A stretch of 64,000 bases of DNA, from contig NZ_VZRA01000004.1 of assembly GCF_008802355.1 (NCBI RefSeq), forward strand, positions 1 to 64,000. Direction: 5' to 3'. Under the pieces are notes generated by a model. The model saw nothing but the letters and a program-made list of their open reading frames with translations. It was not told the origin of the DNA and did not search any database. This stretch comes from Oryzomonas sagensis. Its GTDB lineage: Bacteria; Desulfobacterota; Desulfuromonadia; Geobacterales; Pseudopelobacteraceae. Position numbers and translations under genes: made by a program. Below are positions 370-47,036 of this stretch, in pieces (position 1 is the first letter of the stretch; each line of letters opens with the position of its first letter).

Positions 370-1560
<1,191 letters not shown>

Positions 1561-1610
1561 GGCTGTGTGCTCCTTTCAGGTTTGAAATCCGGTTCTTGGA
1601 ATGGTCAAAA

Positions 1611-1644
1611 ACGAAAAAAAGGCCGGGGGATACATCCCCCGGCC
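1611..1644 (-). terminator. Intrinsic terminator inside the metK leader
   Basis: Perfect 10-bp stem (1621-1630 with 1635-1644, GGCCGGGGGA and its complement) with a 4-nt loop, followed on the minus strand by seven T residues (1614-1620). It lies about 50 nt upstream of the metK start codon and more than 700 nt downstream of the nearest upstream minus-strand gene. It is therefore more likely a regulatory attenuator of metK than a terminator of the preceding gene. Confidence 0.75.
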
Positions 1645-2379
1645 TCCAGTGTGTCTGGTCAGCAAGTTCATGTTTTTTTGCCTGATTTGTTGTCCTGCTG
1701 AAAAGGTCGCTATCTTTTCGGGGTGCCTCCGGGAAAGAACAGCAAAACCTCTTTGTATGACAAGGGCCCTGGCGTCCGGTTTTCCGGTTGGCCTCCACCT
1801 CGCCTCGGTGGATACGGTTTGTTAAAACTGCAAGAACATATTTAATCTGTATTTTTTATAGATTATTATTCCGTCTCTGCGAGGCTGTCAATAAAAAAAT
1901 GGGATTGTTGCCAAAAAAAGGTGATGTTTGGTACAGGCCGAGCGGTTATTTTCGGTCCATAAGAGAGGCGGTTTGCCCATAATTTGGACTATTGACGTAT
2001 GCATAATTCAGATGCAATGTTTAAAGCCTATTGAAAATTAAATATATATTTTGTGCTGCTTCATGCGGGATCAATCTGCATTTCTAACGCTGATAAAACA
2101 AAAAACGGCAAAGCGGCAACAGTAGCTGTGGATAACAGACAACGACTTAGCTTTGTTGAGCTAAGTCGTTGTAATTATTGGCGCGCTCGGTAATAATGAA
2201 AAACAGTACCGGGGGATATGTCTTGACATCAGCCGGATATAGCTGCTCATTGGTCTATTTGAAGTCCGGTTGTATTTTAGTGTATATGGTTCGAGTTCGG
2301 CTTTGTCCCAAGTATGGACAAATCTAGGCGCTCATAATAACGCCAGGGAGCGATGCCGCGGCAGAGAAAAATATGGAAA
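1645..2379. other. Long non-coding interval upstream of metK
   Basis: No convincing gene on either strand over about 735 bp. The part nearest metK (about 1650-1830) is GC-rich and full of local inverted repeats on the minus strand, for example CCGG-AAAA-CCGG and TGCTG...CAGCA. It could be the aptamer half of a metK leader. I compared it from memory with SAM-I, SAM-II, SAM-III, SAH, GEMM and cobalamin consensus elements and could not match it to any. The rest is AT-rich. Confidence 0.4.
2139..2172. repeat. Perfect 14-bp inverted repeat (hairpin)
   Basis: ACAACGACTTAGCT (2139-2152) pairs perfectly with 2159-2172 across a 6-nt loop. There is no T-run on either side, so it is not a classical terminator, although it lies about 200 nt downstream of the Cache sensor gene and might stabilise that transcript end. 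Confidence 0.7.
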
Positions 2380-16479: not shown

Positions 16480-18059
16480 ACGTCAGGCCCCGCTAACGCG
16501 TATTTCAGGCGCAGTTCTTGAATCAGAAAATCACCCGGGGTGGAATCGAAGGTCAGATAATTCCCCGTGGTCTCGCTTTTCAACAGATTACCAGTGGTGT
16601 CATTCGCCAGGATGGTGGAAACCGTCGCTCCGTTGTTGAATGTCAATCTGATGCTGATGGTGCGCGCCCTCGGAAAGTTGTTGCCGGGGGTGAGCCCGGA
16701 TGCGTTGTTAAGGACAAAGATGTTGTCTCCGGCGCTGAGAATCACATTTGACGCGATTGCGATTGGATAGGGGGAGTAATCAAGAAACGCATCGATACTC
16801 GCACCAAATACCGCGTCATGCACCGTAACGGCAAATTCCTTCCATTCCTTCTGCCGTGTGGAGTCTGCGTCTTCATGCCGAGTCTGTAAAACTGCCATGT
16901 GCGGCTTCTGTAGATCCCTGGAAGGGTAGGTGCTTTTAACCAGCGTCCCGGCGCTCTGGCCAAACAGAAAATCGGTATTGATATCATTAAGGGCCAGGGT
17001 CATGGGGCATTCTTGTGGGAGCAGCAAATTGCCCTTTGAATATCCATTGTTCAGGTAGTAGTACAACAGGCTCTGAGTCCCACCATATTGCACCGGCCAC
17101 GTGTACAAAATGGCGTAGAATTTTTGCAGATGGACGGCGGTGATGCTCTGCGGTGAAGCTGTCAGCATCGGGAAAATTGACTTGAAAAACTCCTGTTGAC
17201 TATGCGGTTGCAGCGCGGCCGCATTCAGGGTGGTGGCGTAAATCCCCTCGGTGCTGAGGATGTAGACAACGCCGTTGCTTTCTGCGTTGGCCCCGGTGAG
17301 CCGTTTACCCAGTTGCAACGGGACAAAGGTAATGTCCCGGTAATCAGCGCCGTACATGGCATAGATCGAACTGGCACCGTAGACGATGGCCCCACCCTGT
17401 ACCGGGACGAAATCAAGCGCCGGTTCCTGGTTCGGCAACCAGAGGATATTGAGCGGGTTCCAGACGGTAGCATCACCATTATCTGAAATTTGGATCGTGC
17501 CGTCGCTGTTCACCGCCCACAACCTGTTGGTGTACACCCGCAGCTTCCTGATCGTTTTGCCGGGGATGGAAATAGTTGTGAAGTCCGTCAGGTTAAGGAT
17601 GCCGTTTTTCGTGTTGTCCGGGTTCGGGTTGGTGCAATACTGTTTACCCAGAAACATAACCGGCTTTTCGATGCCGCTGATGTACGCGTTTGCAACGGCG
17701 CGGGCGGTTCCGGCCGACACGTTGAGCGGAAGATCGTTGGAGGTGTCCAACGCGCTTGTGTAGACGTTGCCGTCCCCAGGGGCAAAATAAGCGTTGTATG
17801 CGCCGCCAAATGCCAAAGCAAGGCACACTCCGGGGGTGGCTCCGGTTATTACTGCGGCATCCAGTTCGAAGAACGACGACAAATATCCGGTAGAGAAGAG
17901 CAGCACATTCTCCATCCGCAGCAGTTGGTTACGTCCTACGGCTTCCGGCAATAATGCCTGGGTCTCGCAGCCTCGGAAATCCCTCTGCCGGTGGATTTGC
18001 CAGCCGTCCTTGACGCTCGCTGCGTCATCGGGCAGTATTTTGAGAGCTAGGGGTTTCAA
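16476..18059 (-). CDS. P22 gp10-like connector / DNA-stabilisation protein
   Basis: 527 aa with repeated beta-propeller-like strands (RKLRVYTNRLWAVNSDGTIQISD, YGASSIYAMYG, VVYILSTEGIYATT), the features of the P22 gp10 family that forms the hexameric ring below the portal and keeps packaged DNA inside. The length is close to the 472 aa of gp10. It follows the 217-aa adaptor-like gene, as gp10 follows gp4 in P22-type phages. Family assignment is from pattern and context. Confidence 0.65.
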   Translation of the reverse strand: MKPLALKILPDDAASVKDGWQIHRQRDFRGCETQALLPEAVGRNQLLRMENVLLFSTGYLSSFFELDAAVITGATPGVCLALAFGGAYNAYFAPGDGNVYTSALDTSNDLPLNVSAGTARAVANAYISGIEKPVMFLGKQYCTNPNPDNTKNGILNLTDFTTISIPGKTIRKLRVYTNRLWAVNSDGTIQISDNGDATVWNPLNILWLPNQEPALDFVPVQGGAIVYGASSIYAMYGADYRDITFVPLQLGKRLTGANAESNGVVYILSTEGIYATTLNAAALQPHSQQEFFKSIFPMLTASPQSITAVHLQKFYAILYTWPVQYGGTQSLLYYYLNNGYSKGNLLLPQECPMTLALNDINTDFLFGQSAGTLVKSTYPSRDLQKPHMAVLQTRHEDADSTRQKEWKEFAVTVHDAVFGASIDAFLDYSPYPIAIASNVILSAGDNIFVLNNASGLTPGNNFPRARTISIRLTFNNGATVSTILANDTTGNLLKSETTGNYLTFDSTPGDFLIQELRLKYALAGPDV

Positions 18060-18709
18060 GGCACTCCTCTGATATAGCCATGGTTATTCAGCTTCGGGAG
18101 AGCTTTGCGCCGGTTGTCCCATGCTTTCATCTGGGACATCTGGTACTGGTACAGCATGGATTCTTTCGTGTACCTCCCGTCCTTGTCCTGATCGTAGAAG
18201 CTCATGCGCAATCCGGTAATAAAGAGGTTACTGAAAGCATCGGGGAAAATTGTGTCCTGGTTGTCGGCATACGGGGCTGTAATGTCGGCCATGGCCGTGA
18301 CGGTTGCTGATGCCACGGTCTGAATCGCAGGGTGAAACGTTACAACCTTCCCCGCCGCATCCAAGGTATATCCCTGGTACTGTGGGGGGATAGGTTCTCC
18401 AAATGTCTGATCAAGAAGCGATACCCCTGAATTGTCAATGGCGTTTGCCTCTTCGTCGGAAAGCTGGTTTTTGCGGGAGAAAAAGAACGTGCCCGCATGG
18501 ATCGATACAATTTCCGAGACACCAGCTGGCAGGGTGATTTGGTTGTTGGTGATCACCAGCGTCAGCGGTTCGTCCAAAAACTTCCATTCCCTCGGTTGCC
18601 GGAGGATATCCTGGACGATTTCATTGAACCACGCGACGAACACGGGCCGGGGCTGGTTCCCCACGATCTTCGTCAATGCGCTGGTTATGGCCGTACCTAC
18701 GTTGATCAC
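18056..18709 (-). CDS. Head-to-tail adaptor-like protein
   Basis: 217 aa, GTG start at 18709. Begins with a helix (GTAITSALTKIVGN) and then ILRQPREWKFLDEPLTLVIT, the layout of small head-completion or tail-accessory proteins placed between capsid and connector genes in short-tailed phages. The GTG start overlaps a stop codon (GTGA) of the zinc-finger reading frame just upstream, and that would couple its translation to the frame reached only after a frameshift. Confidence 0.6.
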   Translation of the reverse strand: MINVGTAITSALTKIVGNQPRPVFVAWFNEIVQDILRQPREWKFLDEPLTLVITNNQITLPAGVSEIVSIHAGTFFFSRKNQLSDEEANAIDNSGVSLLDQTFGEPIPPQYQGYTLDAAGKVVTFHPAIQTVASATVTAMADITAPYADNQDTIFPDAFSNLFITGLRMSFYDQDKDGRYTKESMLYQYQMSQMKAWDNRRKALPKLNNHGYIRGVP

Positions 18710-18795
18710 TTGTGGCTCCGCATGTGTGCACTCAGGGCGAGTTTACTCGGGCATTCCCGCCCACACTCTGGGCAGGCAACCGATTCAGAAGTTAC
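18706..18795 (-). CDS. C2H2 zinc-finger extension, reachable by -1 frameshift
   Basis: In the -1 frame relative to the 109-aa gene, the 90 nt before the 217-aa gene encode 29 residues that include CPECGRECPSKLALSAHMRS followed by H, a textbook C2H2 finger (C-x2-C-x12-H-x3-H). The frame is open but I found no ATG, GTG or TTG in it over at least the preceding 130 nt. The junction is nine A residues (18796-18804) read AAA AAA AAG then TAA in the upstream gene, containing A AAA AAG as in the dnaX frameshift site. A stem (CTGCCCA with TGGGCGG) follows about 19 nt later. The fused product would be 138 aa. Recoding or polymerase slippage on the A run is inference. Confidence 0.6.
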   Translation of the reverse strand, partial: VTSESVACPECGRECPSKLALSAHMRSHK

Positions 18796-19121
18796 TTTTT
18801 TTTTACCTCGTCCGGCAGGAACGGATCGGAATAGAGGTATGTCTTGTTTGTCGCCTTTAGATGATCTGCCGTATGTGACGGGACAATGGCGTAAGGGGCC
18901 GGCTCCGCGTCCCTGTAGCGTTTGTCGGCAGGCATCAAGATTGCGGTAGACTTGTGTTGTTTCCCGTCACTGATGAACGATTCCGTAAGCACGGCAGTGC
19001 CGTCGTGGTGGTTGTCGCTGGGATGGATAAAAGACTGCCCGGCGATGGTAATGCGGGTATCGGGCTCCGGCTTCACGACCTTGACGACGAAACGGCTTAA
19101 GATCTCTTCCTGGGTGGTCAT
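18792..19121 (-). CDS. Small head-module protein, frameshift-extended candidate
   Basis: 109 aa, soluble beta-rich protein (MTTQEEILSRFVVKVVKPEP at the start, FLPDEVKKK at the end). No family recognised. It ends exactly in the nine-A run with an immediate TAA. A -1 slip would fuse the zinc-finger segment described at 18706-18795. As the next gene starts inside the zinc-finger stop codon, the extended form is probably the one whose translation reaches the neighbour. Confidence 0.6.
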   Translation of the reverse strand: MTTQEEILSRFVVKVVKPEPDTRITIAGQSFIHPSDNHHDGTAVLTESFISDGKQHKSTAILMPADKRYRDAEPAPYAIVPSHTADHLKATNKTYLYSDPFLPDEVKKK

Positions 19122-19139
19122 TGGTTCTCGCTTTCCGCC

Positions 19140-19506: not shown

Positions 19507-19968
19507 TTAACGGTCGAGCGTCTGCAACCACATTTTGATCTTGTGGCCGGCGGCGGACGGCGTCCATTGAAGCCGAATATAATTCACGGCGTCCTGCCAG
19601 GAAAGTATACCGTTGCTGGTCATAGACACCGCCGCCCCTGCCGAAGTCTGGGCTTGTGCGCAGGATGCCCACGGGCCATTGGAGGTCGGGCCGCACTGTG
19701 CCACTGCGGTGCCGCTCATGTTCTGGAATACCGGGTTGCTGGCGGAACTGGTGAGCGTAACCCCGGAGACGTTGAGGGTCTTGGTCTTGTACCCCTGGAC
19801 GTTCCATGCCCCGGAATACTTGATGTTGGTGGCCCCGGCTGCTGAAATGTTGCCGAAGACAAACCCTCCGGGGGCGTCCCCGAGAGCGGATGCCTTGTGG
19901 GTGCCGATCATGGAAACTGCGACCGCGATCATGATTACCGCGGCGAAAGAAAATATCCTGGTTTTCAT
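19507..19968 (-). CDS. Secreted-type beta-sandwich protein beside capsid genes
   Basis: 153 aa. A Sec-type signal (MKTRIFSFAAVIMIAVAVS, cleavage expected after a KASA-type motif) is followed by FVFGNIS and short strands (IKYSGAWNVQGYKTK, VNYIRLQWTP). The start at 19968 is fixed by AGGAGG 7 nt upstream and overlaps the stop of the extended upstream frame as ATGA. Such a leader is unexpected beside capsid genes. It could be a capsid decoration protein with an uncleaved hydrophobic end, or a protein displayed by the host. Confidence 0.6.
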   Translation of the reverse strand: MKTRIFSFAAVIMIAVAVSMIGTHKASALGDAPGGFVFGNISAAGATNIKYSGAWNVQGYKTKTLNVSGVTLTSSASNPVFQNMSGTAVAQCGPTSNGPWASCAQAQTSAGAAVSMTSNGILSWQDAVNYIRLQWTPSAAGHKIKMWLQTLDR

Positions 19969-20443: not shown

Positions 20444-21409
20444 TTAGGTGTACTGGACATTCGTGTCGAGGTTGGTGATCCTGCCGGAACTGGCCTCGTT
20501 CTTCGCCTCCAGGGTATGGTTGACCGTGATGTGGTATTTCTCGTTCAGGGCTGAAGAAGTCGCCAGTTTGGTTTCCCCGATGGTTTCCAGGGTTGCCTTG
20601 CGCCAGTAGGTCATGTTCATGAGGGCCAGGACATCAACCGGCATTTCCACATCCAACTCGGTGACGACCTTGCCAAAGGCGGTAACGTACACGTCGACGT
20701 AATCGTCCACCTTGGAGCCTTCAACAAACCGCTGTTTGTTGCCGCCGGCTGTTGCTACGTTGTCGAACTGGGCCTGCTGTACGGCGTTGCAGTACCCCTT
20801 GACGGTCTTGTTTTTGTCAACGGACCCCGTGGTGTACATGTTTTGCATGGTCTGTTTGATCAGGCCAGCGGTCAGGAGCCGGGGGGTGCCGCCGGTCACG
20901 GTGCCGTCAGCGTTCAGCACGGCGTCGCCGGCCATGTTCAGGTTGGTGAGTATCCAGTTCAGGGCACCCTTCATCTTGTACGCCGTGGCGGCGTCGTCGC
21001 CCTGTACCAGTGTGCTTTTCAGGAATGCGCGGTTGATATCTTTGGAAAGCCCCTCCATGTGTTTGCGGCGTTGGAGGTCGCGTTCGGAAGAACGACCGGC
21101 GATCTTGACGGCTCCCGAGGTGGACGAAACAGAATAGCTCTCGTCCTGGATCTGGCAGAAGTTGTACAGCCTGGATGGCTGGGTGGATGCCTGGATGGTC
21201 GGGTCCGCGCCTTCAAGCTGCGCGTTGTCCGCCGAAGCTCTGATGACATCGGTGAGAAATTCGTGTTTTTTGGCGCCGGGTTTTTTGCCCTGCCCAAGGT
21301 CATGGTAAAAAACGGCGATGGCCGGGGTGATGATGGAAAGCTCATCCAACAGAGATTCCCTGACCCCCACCATATTGGTTGTTTGTACAGTATTTGCGGG
21401 TACGCCCAT
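20444..21409 (-). CDS. Major capsid protein, SU10 type
   Basis: 321 aa, HK97-fold candidate. It starts near a loop (RESLLDELSIITPAIAVFYH) and has the central RSSERDLQRRKHMEGLSKDI segment and the late WRKATLETIGETKLATSS strand pattern of SU10-type capsid proteins (the family often annotated DUF5309). Position after scaffold and portal genes agrees. Start ATG preceded by AGGAGAG. Confidence 0.75.
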   Translation of the reverse strand: MGVPANTVQTTNMVGVRESLLDELSIITPAIAVFYHDLGQGKKPGAKKHEFLTDVIRASADNAQLEGADPTIQASTQPSRLYNFCQIQDESYSVSSTSGAVKIAGRSSERDLQRRKHMEGLSKDINRAFLKSTLVQGDDAATAYKMKGALNWILTNLNMAGDAVLNADGTVTGGTPRLLTAGLIKQTMQNMYTTGSVDKNKTVKGYCNAVQQAQFDNVATAGGNKQRFVEGSKVDDYVDVYVTAFGKVVTELDVEMPVDVLALMNMTYWRKATLETIGETKLATSSALNEKYHITVNHTLEAKNEASSGRITNLDTNVQYT

Positions 21410-46959: not shown

Positions 46960-47005
46960 TGGCGCGCCCGGAGAGATTCGAACTCCCGACAACCTGGTTC
47001 GAAGC
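46960..47005. other. attR core inside tRNA-Arg
   Basis: 46 bp shared exactly with 4603-4648, ending in the anticodon-stem region of the tRNA. Confidence 0.95.
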
Positions 47006-47036
47006 CAGGGACTCTATCCAGCTGAGCTACGGGCGC
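46960..47036 (-). tRNA. tRNA-Arg(UCG)
   Basis: 77 nt with CCA encoded. The acceptor stem GCGCCCG pairs with CGGGCGC. The anticodon loop CTTCGAA gives anticodon TCG, between CCTGG and CCAGG. The T-loop TTCGAAT is present. It is the integration target: the intact gene lies at the right prophage end. Confidence 0.97.

Follow-up and report, generated by a model that had tools for sequence, protein, structure and literature searches.

A candidate programmed -1 recoding site predicted to add a C2H2 zinc finger to a small phage head-module protein

The head-module locus and its -1 extension

The window, i.e. the whole 64-kb stretch of DNA analysed here, carries on its minus strand the gene of an SU10-type major capsid protein (20444..21409; PF17236, 193.8 bits against a cut-off of 24.1), which served to find relatives, and the gene of an SU10-type adaptor (18056..18709, with a GTG start at 18707-18709; PF24175, 36.8 bits against a cut-off of 27). 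Between the two sits a small head-module gene on the same strand (18792..19121), which aligns with its homologues and whose 0-frame product comprises 109 amino acids. Its 3' end reads GTA AAA AAA AAG TAA, with the stop codon TAA at 18792-18794. The run of nine adenines (A9, 18796..18804) is the sole A/T homopolymer of nine or more in the 64-kb window, with four others reaching eight, and it includes most of the slippery heptamer A AAA AAG (18795..18801), which lies in register and abuts the 0-frame stop. A second in-register heptamer, A AAA AAA (18798..18804), overlaps the first one.

In the -1 frame, an extension of 29 codons (18709..18795) leads to a TGA (18706..18708) that overlaps the GTG start of the adaptor gene. 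The product of this frame, VTSESVACPECGRECPSKLALSAHMRSHK, includes the C2H2 zinc finger CPECGRECPSKLALSAHMRSH (18712..18774), with its ligands spaced as C-x2-C-x12-H-x3-H. It passes the Pfam cut-offs narrowly, with 27.3 bits against 27 for PF13894 and 25.3 against 25.2 for PF00096; by both ligand spacing and Pfam score the extension is thus a predicted C2H2 finger. An Ig-like fold was not found for it, the 29 codons matching C2H2 finger models in Pfam. Reading in -1 is uninterrupted over the 165 nt that precede the last heptamer and beyond it; ahead of the finger this frame holds one ATA but none of the codons ATG, GTG and TTG. The initial annotation had described the gene end in these terms, namely the heptamer with an immediate stop, a canonical finger in a -1 frame without a start codon, and a terminal TGA overlapping the start of the next gene, and the sequence agrees. 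Its claim that all other genes of the operon overlap does not hold, as gaps exist elsewhere in the block, for example at 19122-19139.

The surrounding prophage, if collinear, would extend from about 4895 to 46768 of the window, as judged by the offset of IMGVR_UViG_2894675838_000002 (41,874 bases). A tRNA-Arg (TCG) at 46963-47036 lies just outside and is a possible integration site.

Relatives with and without the finger

Relatives were sought through the capsid protein, because searches with the 109-aa protein gave nothing solid outside its own genome: against viral contigs it found only the identical sequence, against phages there was no match, and against 293 related genomes it returned its own copy and two weak short matches (G242, G014). 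The L093 copy of the small protein likewise had no match among phages. Two of the capsid searches contributed the best 80 of 124 and the best 80 of 410 matches; among plasmids, the capsid found three Sinorhizobium records at less than 30% identity.

The arrangement recurs in five sequences reached in this way. L006, with a capsid 78% identical to that of the window, reads GAA AAA AAA AAG GAA TAG, so that its run is A10 and the 0-frame stop follows one codon after A AAA AAG; the finger in the -1 frame is CEVCGRACGSDLGLAAHMRTH. L087 lies on a contig from a Desulfuromonadaceae MAG and has a capsid 46% identical; it reads GGA AAA AAG TAA (A6) and continues in -1 with the finger CTECDFVAKNKLGLSAHMKKH. 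In L093 and L094 (capsid 44-45%) the gene ends in AAA AAG TAG, at a run of A6 in L093 and A7 in L094, and the -1 frame gives CPSCGKDCKIKMAYTNHVKAC, a C2HC version with the spacing C-x2-C-x12-H-x3-C. L200 reads GAA AAA AAG TAA (A7), followed in -1 by the finger CDICGKGFDHHLALSGHKRSH. Both L093 and L094 lie on IMGVR 3300025000_000167 (46,988 bases), as similar but distinct head-module copies near its two ends, and the contig represents either tandem prophages or a chimeric assembly. The two were treated as one lineage, and with this pair counted once there are at least six sequences in at least five lineages.

All six sequences share A AAA AAG in register, a 0-frame stop and an open -1 frame with a finger; in every member this small gene carries them at its 3' end, and the adaptor gene comes next. 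An alignment joins the carrier proteins into a single family, and neither the window protein nor any of five relatives has a match in Pfam or PHROG. The fingers of L006, L087 and L200 possess the ligands and score under the Pfam cut-off; those of L093 and L094 also fall below it, with a best E value of 0.02 for L093. The initial annotation had proposed an alignment of homologues as a check on the A run and the finger, and both turn out to be kept in five lineages, with the finger always in -1. The arrangement is hereby confirmed as a real feature of the window. Since it recurs in four other related lineages, the site looks like a kept signal rather than an accident.

The -1 frame itself bears the marks of coding constraint, with the finger present in all six sequences and a synonymous bias between L093 and L094. 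Nine base differences separate these two over the 34-codon extension, and seven of the nine codon changes are synonymous in the -1 frame, compared with none and three of nine in the two other frames, which also contain stops. A simulation with the same numbers of transitions and transversions gave an expectation of six non-synonymous codons, with P 0.004 for two or fewer. The two non-synonymous changes sit in the stem of a hairpin, and all three differences within this 15-bp stem preserve its pairing.

Other relatives of the small protein do without the finger. In L011 (7760-8017) and L203 (7596-7853) it ends in PKRGPGRPAKSE or AKRGPGRPAKSE, with a KRGPGRPAKSE tail that we take to be AT-hook-like, while the tails are KLKKKG in L201 and EKVETSKK in L202. 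In these finger-less loci the adaptor gene overlaps the small gene or follows it directly, with no gap, and A AAA AAG ahead of the stop is absent, L202 having T AAA AAA. Homologues with an ordinary stop and no finger had been named at the outset as the finding that would speak against a frameshift; such relatives do exist, yet they lack the heptamer and the gap along with the finger. The small gene of L202 (5025-5261) ends in AAA AAA TGA, and reading on in -1 leads directly into the adaptor gene, which overlaps it.

When the capsids of 17 chosen rows are arranged in a tree, one change suffices to account for the finger. The single origin of the finger in that tree is weakly supported (51/66; 62% of bootstrap trees), and the window, L006, L087, L093 and L094 form a clade at 100/100. 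More distant genomes with a capsid match are L101, L355, L356 and L357; their genes were listed on the plus strand, L101 and L357 match on the other strand, and L101 was included in the scans of both strands.

A further gene is conserved after the capsid gene, and its product carries a putative Sec signal peptide, for example MKKIMLFFTMAVLVAFAAPVFAA, which is odd for a head module. It is found in the window at 19507-19968 (minus strand) and at L006:7220-7624, L087:7000-7425, L093:1025-1456, L094:6991-7422 and L011:6985-7407; the window and L087 copies have no PHROG match.

Slippage signals, host tRNAs and chance occurrence

A hairpin of the dnaX type generally begins 5-8 nt downstream of the slippery site, and Shine-Dalgarno (SD)-like elements range from 6 to 17 nt upstream (PMC4066793). 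In L093 and L094, a 15-bp stem is located 4 nt after the heptamer (z -5.1 and -5.3), and L087 has a 10-bp stem 5 nt downstream (z -4.0); folding as good occurs along the same loci at 0/526, 1/790 and 7/985 sampled positions in L093, L094 and L087, respectively. The hairpin of L200 is weak (6 nt, z -1.4), and that of L006 (z -0.2) was counted as absent. In the window, the stem comprises 8 bp and begins 18 nt after the heptamer (z -2.4, or -2.0 in a second run); its strength is equalled by 4.7% of the positions in the locus, and Rfam gave no match at the window site. An SD-like AGAGG or GGAG is present 7-11 nt upstream in L087, L093, L094 and L200; as 3.7-14.9% of the positions in those four loci have an equally good element, it is a weak signal by itself. 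The strongest SD duplex of L094 lies elsewhere, 16-18 nt away. The GAGG of the window sits too close, only 1-4 nt away from its heptamers and 4 nt ahead of the last one, and L006 has no SD-like element. Helper elements are therefore at a non-canonical distance or absent just in the window and L006, the A9/A10 pair.

The genome of the window host gave 46 tRNA matches, all read by ARAGORN, with one tRNA-Lys UUU and two tRNA-Lys CUU. It thus departs from the single tRNA-Lys UUU that is favourable for, and not strictly required by, dnaX-type slippage. In the MAG of L087, 37 of the 42 tRNA matches were identified, one of them a tRNA-Lys, with UUU; the other five are 82-88 nt long and, given this length, unlikely to be tRNA-Lys. 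The reference is E. coli with its single tRNA-Lys (UUU). Where a second Lys tRNA exists, tight pairing with AAG is expected of it, and this may explain the RNA polymerase slippage at Thermus thermophilus dnaX (PMC5009743). By the same reasoning, less slippage on AAG would be expected in the window host because of its two tRNA-Lys CUU genes (PMC5009743), and since both Lys tRNAs are present, RNA polymerase slippage is a live alternative in the window. The contrast between the two hosts serves as a lead only, because MAGs may miss genes and phage contigs may be misbinned.

How often a slippery site meets a finger was surveyed in 162 capsid-derived loci on the plus strand, some of them near-identical, with sites made unique by sequence context. 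These loci contain 52 slippery heptamers at most three codons from the end of an open stretch of at least 40 codons, among them 10 A AAA AAG, and 37 with a -1 extension of at least 20 residues. A finger in -1 follows 8 of the 52 entries, which are exactly the six family sequences, two of them having overlapping heptamers; of the 10 A AAA AAG sites close to a gene end, 6 belong to these sequences, and no other slippery site counted on the plus strand of the 162 loci is followed by a finger in -1.

When viral contigs were scanned for A AAA AAG TAR with a finger pattern behind it, 95 stretches matched, with the finger in +1 in 58, in -1 in 30 and in the 0 frame in 7. An open finger in -1 was present in 23 of the 95, and 11 of these end a 0-frame stretch of at least 40 codons. 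Three of the 11 have no ATG before the finger, namely the window (L092) together with L154 and L192 (the L093/L094 contig). L087, L006 and L200 were missed by this pattern on account of another collection, a stop one codon later and a longer spacing. In the remaining eight contigs a gene likewise closes with A AAA AAG TAA, and the finger-like ORF in -1 has an ATG ahead of the finger; L136, L143, L158 and L148, the last with its copies L155, L176, L182 and L185, were rejected for this reason, and their finger ORFs are probably coupled separate genes. A wider scan, which took in both strands of 273 loci, allowed up to 12 codons to the stop and used a loose finger pattern, brought up L002 and L012, which were discarded as antisense open frames, the loose pattern being met by long unrelated stretches, and L137, in which the extension starts with ATG. 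L090 is not a member either, being an unrelated phage with its finger in frame.

Interpretation, rival explanations and known systems

In our judgement it is highly probable that the 109-aa gene carries a programmed -1 recoding site adding a C-terminal finger, and the frameshift reading of the initial annotation is supported by the sequence comparison. Ordinary translation would halt at the TAA and give the short 109-aa protein. A fraction of the readings would slip back by one base on the A run, at the tandem Lys codons of A AAA AAG, and proceed through 29 more codons, so that the 109-aa protein would receive a C2H2 finger at its C terminus and translation would end at the adaptor start. The element common to the whole family would be the ribosomal site A AAA AAG; on the longer A runs of the window and L006, RNA polymerase may do the same job. 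That slippage occurs, and with what frequency, we infer from the sequence. The initial annotation had further suggested that a fixed minority of copies would carry the finger and could count or bind DNA as the head is completed, which is speculative.

Transcriptional slippage can accordingly be set against ribosomal slippage for the window and L006 lineages only, where it overlaps with programmed recoding as a sub-case. RNA polymerase would stutter on A9/A10, so that the mRNA gains one A or loses two, and ordinary translation would deliver the same finger-tailed product, as for Thermus thermophilus dnaX. The combination of A9/A10 with helpers off the canonical distance in just these two sequences and the presence of both Lys tRNAs in the window host point in this direction, as does the parallel with T. 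thermophilus dnaX, where slippage takes place at nine As (PMC3711429) in a host with two Lys tRNAs (PMC5009743). Against it stand the runs of A6 in L087 and L093 and of A7 in L094 and L200, compared with the more than seven As of transcriptional slippage runs (PMC3711429), and the register of A AAA AAG, which is held in six of six sequences. For its two lineages, we rate polymerase slippage a serious candidate with somewhat less than an even chance.

The remaining alternatives do without recoding. The finger might be encoded by a small gene of its own, with ribosomes re-initiating at a non-standard start once they have passed the 0-frame stop. The gene order would allow this, and an ATA precedes the finger in the -1 frame of the window, L006 and L093, as do two GTG and two CTG codons in L200; but the other five sequences have no ATG, GTG or TTG, L087 and L094 also lack CTG, ATT, ATA and ATC, and the eight other contigs of the same layout do carry an ATG between stop and finger. 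We regard re-initiation as very unlikely. A sequencing error or a decayed gene would imply that one A is missing and that the true gene is an in-frame fusion. Homopolymer runs are prone to sequencing errors, and one extra A would indeed fuse the frames. The same -1 offset is, however, seen in six sequences on five separately named contigs, four of them at A6/A7, and the synonymous bias in -1 likewise argues against an error, for which we see very little room. As to a chance finger within a non-coding gap, the motif is short, and C2H2-like matches arise by chance in long sequence; the homologues refute this, with the finger at the same place and in the same register in five lineages, and its probability is close to nil.

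Going beyond the recoding site as such, it is conceivable, though on balance doubtful, that two machines keep one phage fusion, with ribosomal slippage at A6/A7 and RNA polymerase slippage at A9/A10. The ribosomal branch would be marked by an SD-like element, by a strong hairpin in three of four sequences and by a host with a single Lys tRNA, and the polymerase branch by a lack of helpers at the canonical distance and by a host with tRNA-Lys CUU. If so, the recoding signal would follow the host tRNA set, as far as the tRNAs of two hosts go, and the split between the dnaX genes of E. coli and T. thermophilus would be repeated inside one phage family.

With regard to function, the position of the gene between capsid and adaptor, together with the AT-hook-like or Lys-rich tails of the relatives, suggests a DNA-binding tail, and the finger would presumably bind DNA. 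A tail in contact with DNA is further suggested by the exchange of tails among relatives and by L090 (IMGVR 3300027864_001019, 1267-1776, minus strand orientation), where a 169-aa protein has an in-frame C-terminal C2H2 finger and no recoding. This protein is encoded directly after a 354-aa gene, a putative capsid gene. Those copies that bear the finger would then make contact with the genome, either while it is packaged or close to the portal end. For the window protein, AlphaFold2 gave a poor model (pLDDT 66), and Foldseek found no match to it at E <= 0.001. The 78-aa relative from L202 was modelled at pLDDT 78; in two libraries nothing matched it at E <= 0.001, and the weak matches were to phage proteins that are themselves uncharacterised. 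Since it matches nothing of known function, the fold gives no indication of function.

If the recoding reading is true, a phage equips part of the copies of a small head-module protein, and not all of them, with a finger predicted to bind DNA, whereas relatives of the protein bear an in-frame AT-hook-like tail instead. How some of the molecules of a virion-module protein get tagged for genome contact could then be put to the test directly, and it points to fingers that are invisible to gene calling based on start codons. The six sites form a natural series in run length, SD-like element and hairpin, suited to separating ribosomal from transcriptional slippage. Among the titles and abstract openings listed from an open-access library with few subscription journals, none described a phage head module to which frameshifting adds a zinc finger, and the word zinc is absent from the main text of the bacterial frameshift-gene surveys PMC3711429 and PMC4066793.

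Among known systems, bacterial dnaX has the same heptamer A AAA AAG in the same register, and the likeness extends to the SD-like element and hairpin in L087, L093 and L094 and to the SD-like element in L200. There are also reports of dnaX genes of reversed layout, in which the slippery site is followed at once by the 0-frame stop (PMC5009743). The present site differs from bacterial dnaX in belonging to a short phage head-module gene, in leading to an extension and not a truncation, in its helpers, which are off the canonical distance in the window and missing in L006, and in the second Lys tRNA of the window host. The window shares with T. thermophilus dnaX the A9 run and a host with both Lys tRNAs; here, in contrast, it is the short product that is specified by the template frame, slippage is predicted, and the other members with A6/A7 runs depart from that model. 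The SU10-type head module is represented by the PF17236 capsid and the PF24175 adaptor that flank the 109-aa gene, which itself falls outside all Pfam and PHROG families. Pseudomonas phage Bjorn, one of 139 phage records with a related capsid, has a single small gene from the capsid to the putative adaptor gene; by eye, it resembles the 108-aa neighbour rather than the 109-aa gene.

A close precedent is provided by C-terminal extensions that frameshifting adds to phage structural proteins, as in T3, T7, A2, A118, A500 and PSA; the known recoded extensions include Ig-like domains, and the coat proteins of T3, A2, A118 and PSA are among the proteins concerned (PMC5009743). As in those phages, a C-terminal domain would be placed on some copies by recoding near the gene end. 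Here, however, what would be added is a zinc finger, some 21 residues long, in place of an Ig-like fold, and the carrier is a small accessory protein and not a major capsid or tail protein. That recoding adds a C-terminal domain to phage structural proteins is therefore known, and the zinc finger predicted here would represent a new variant of it.
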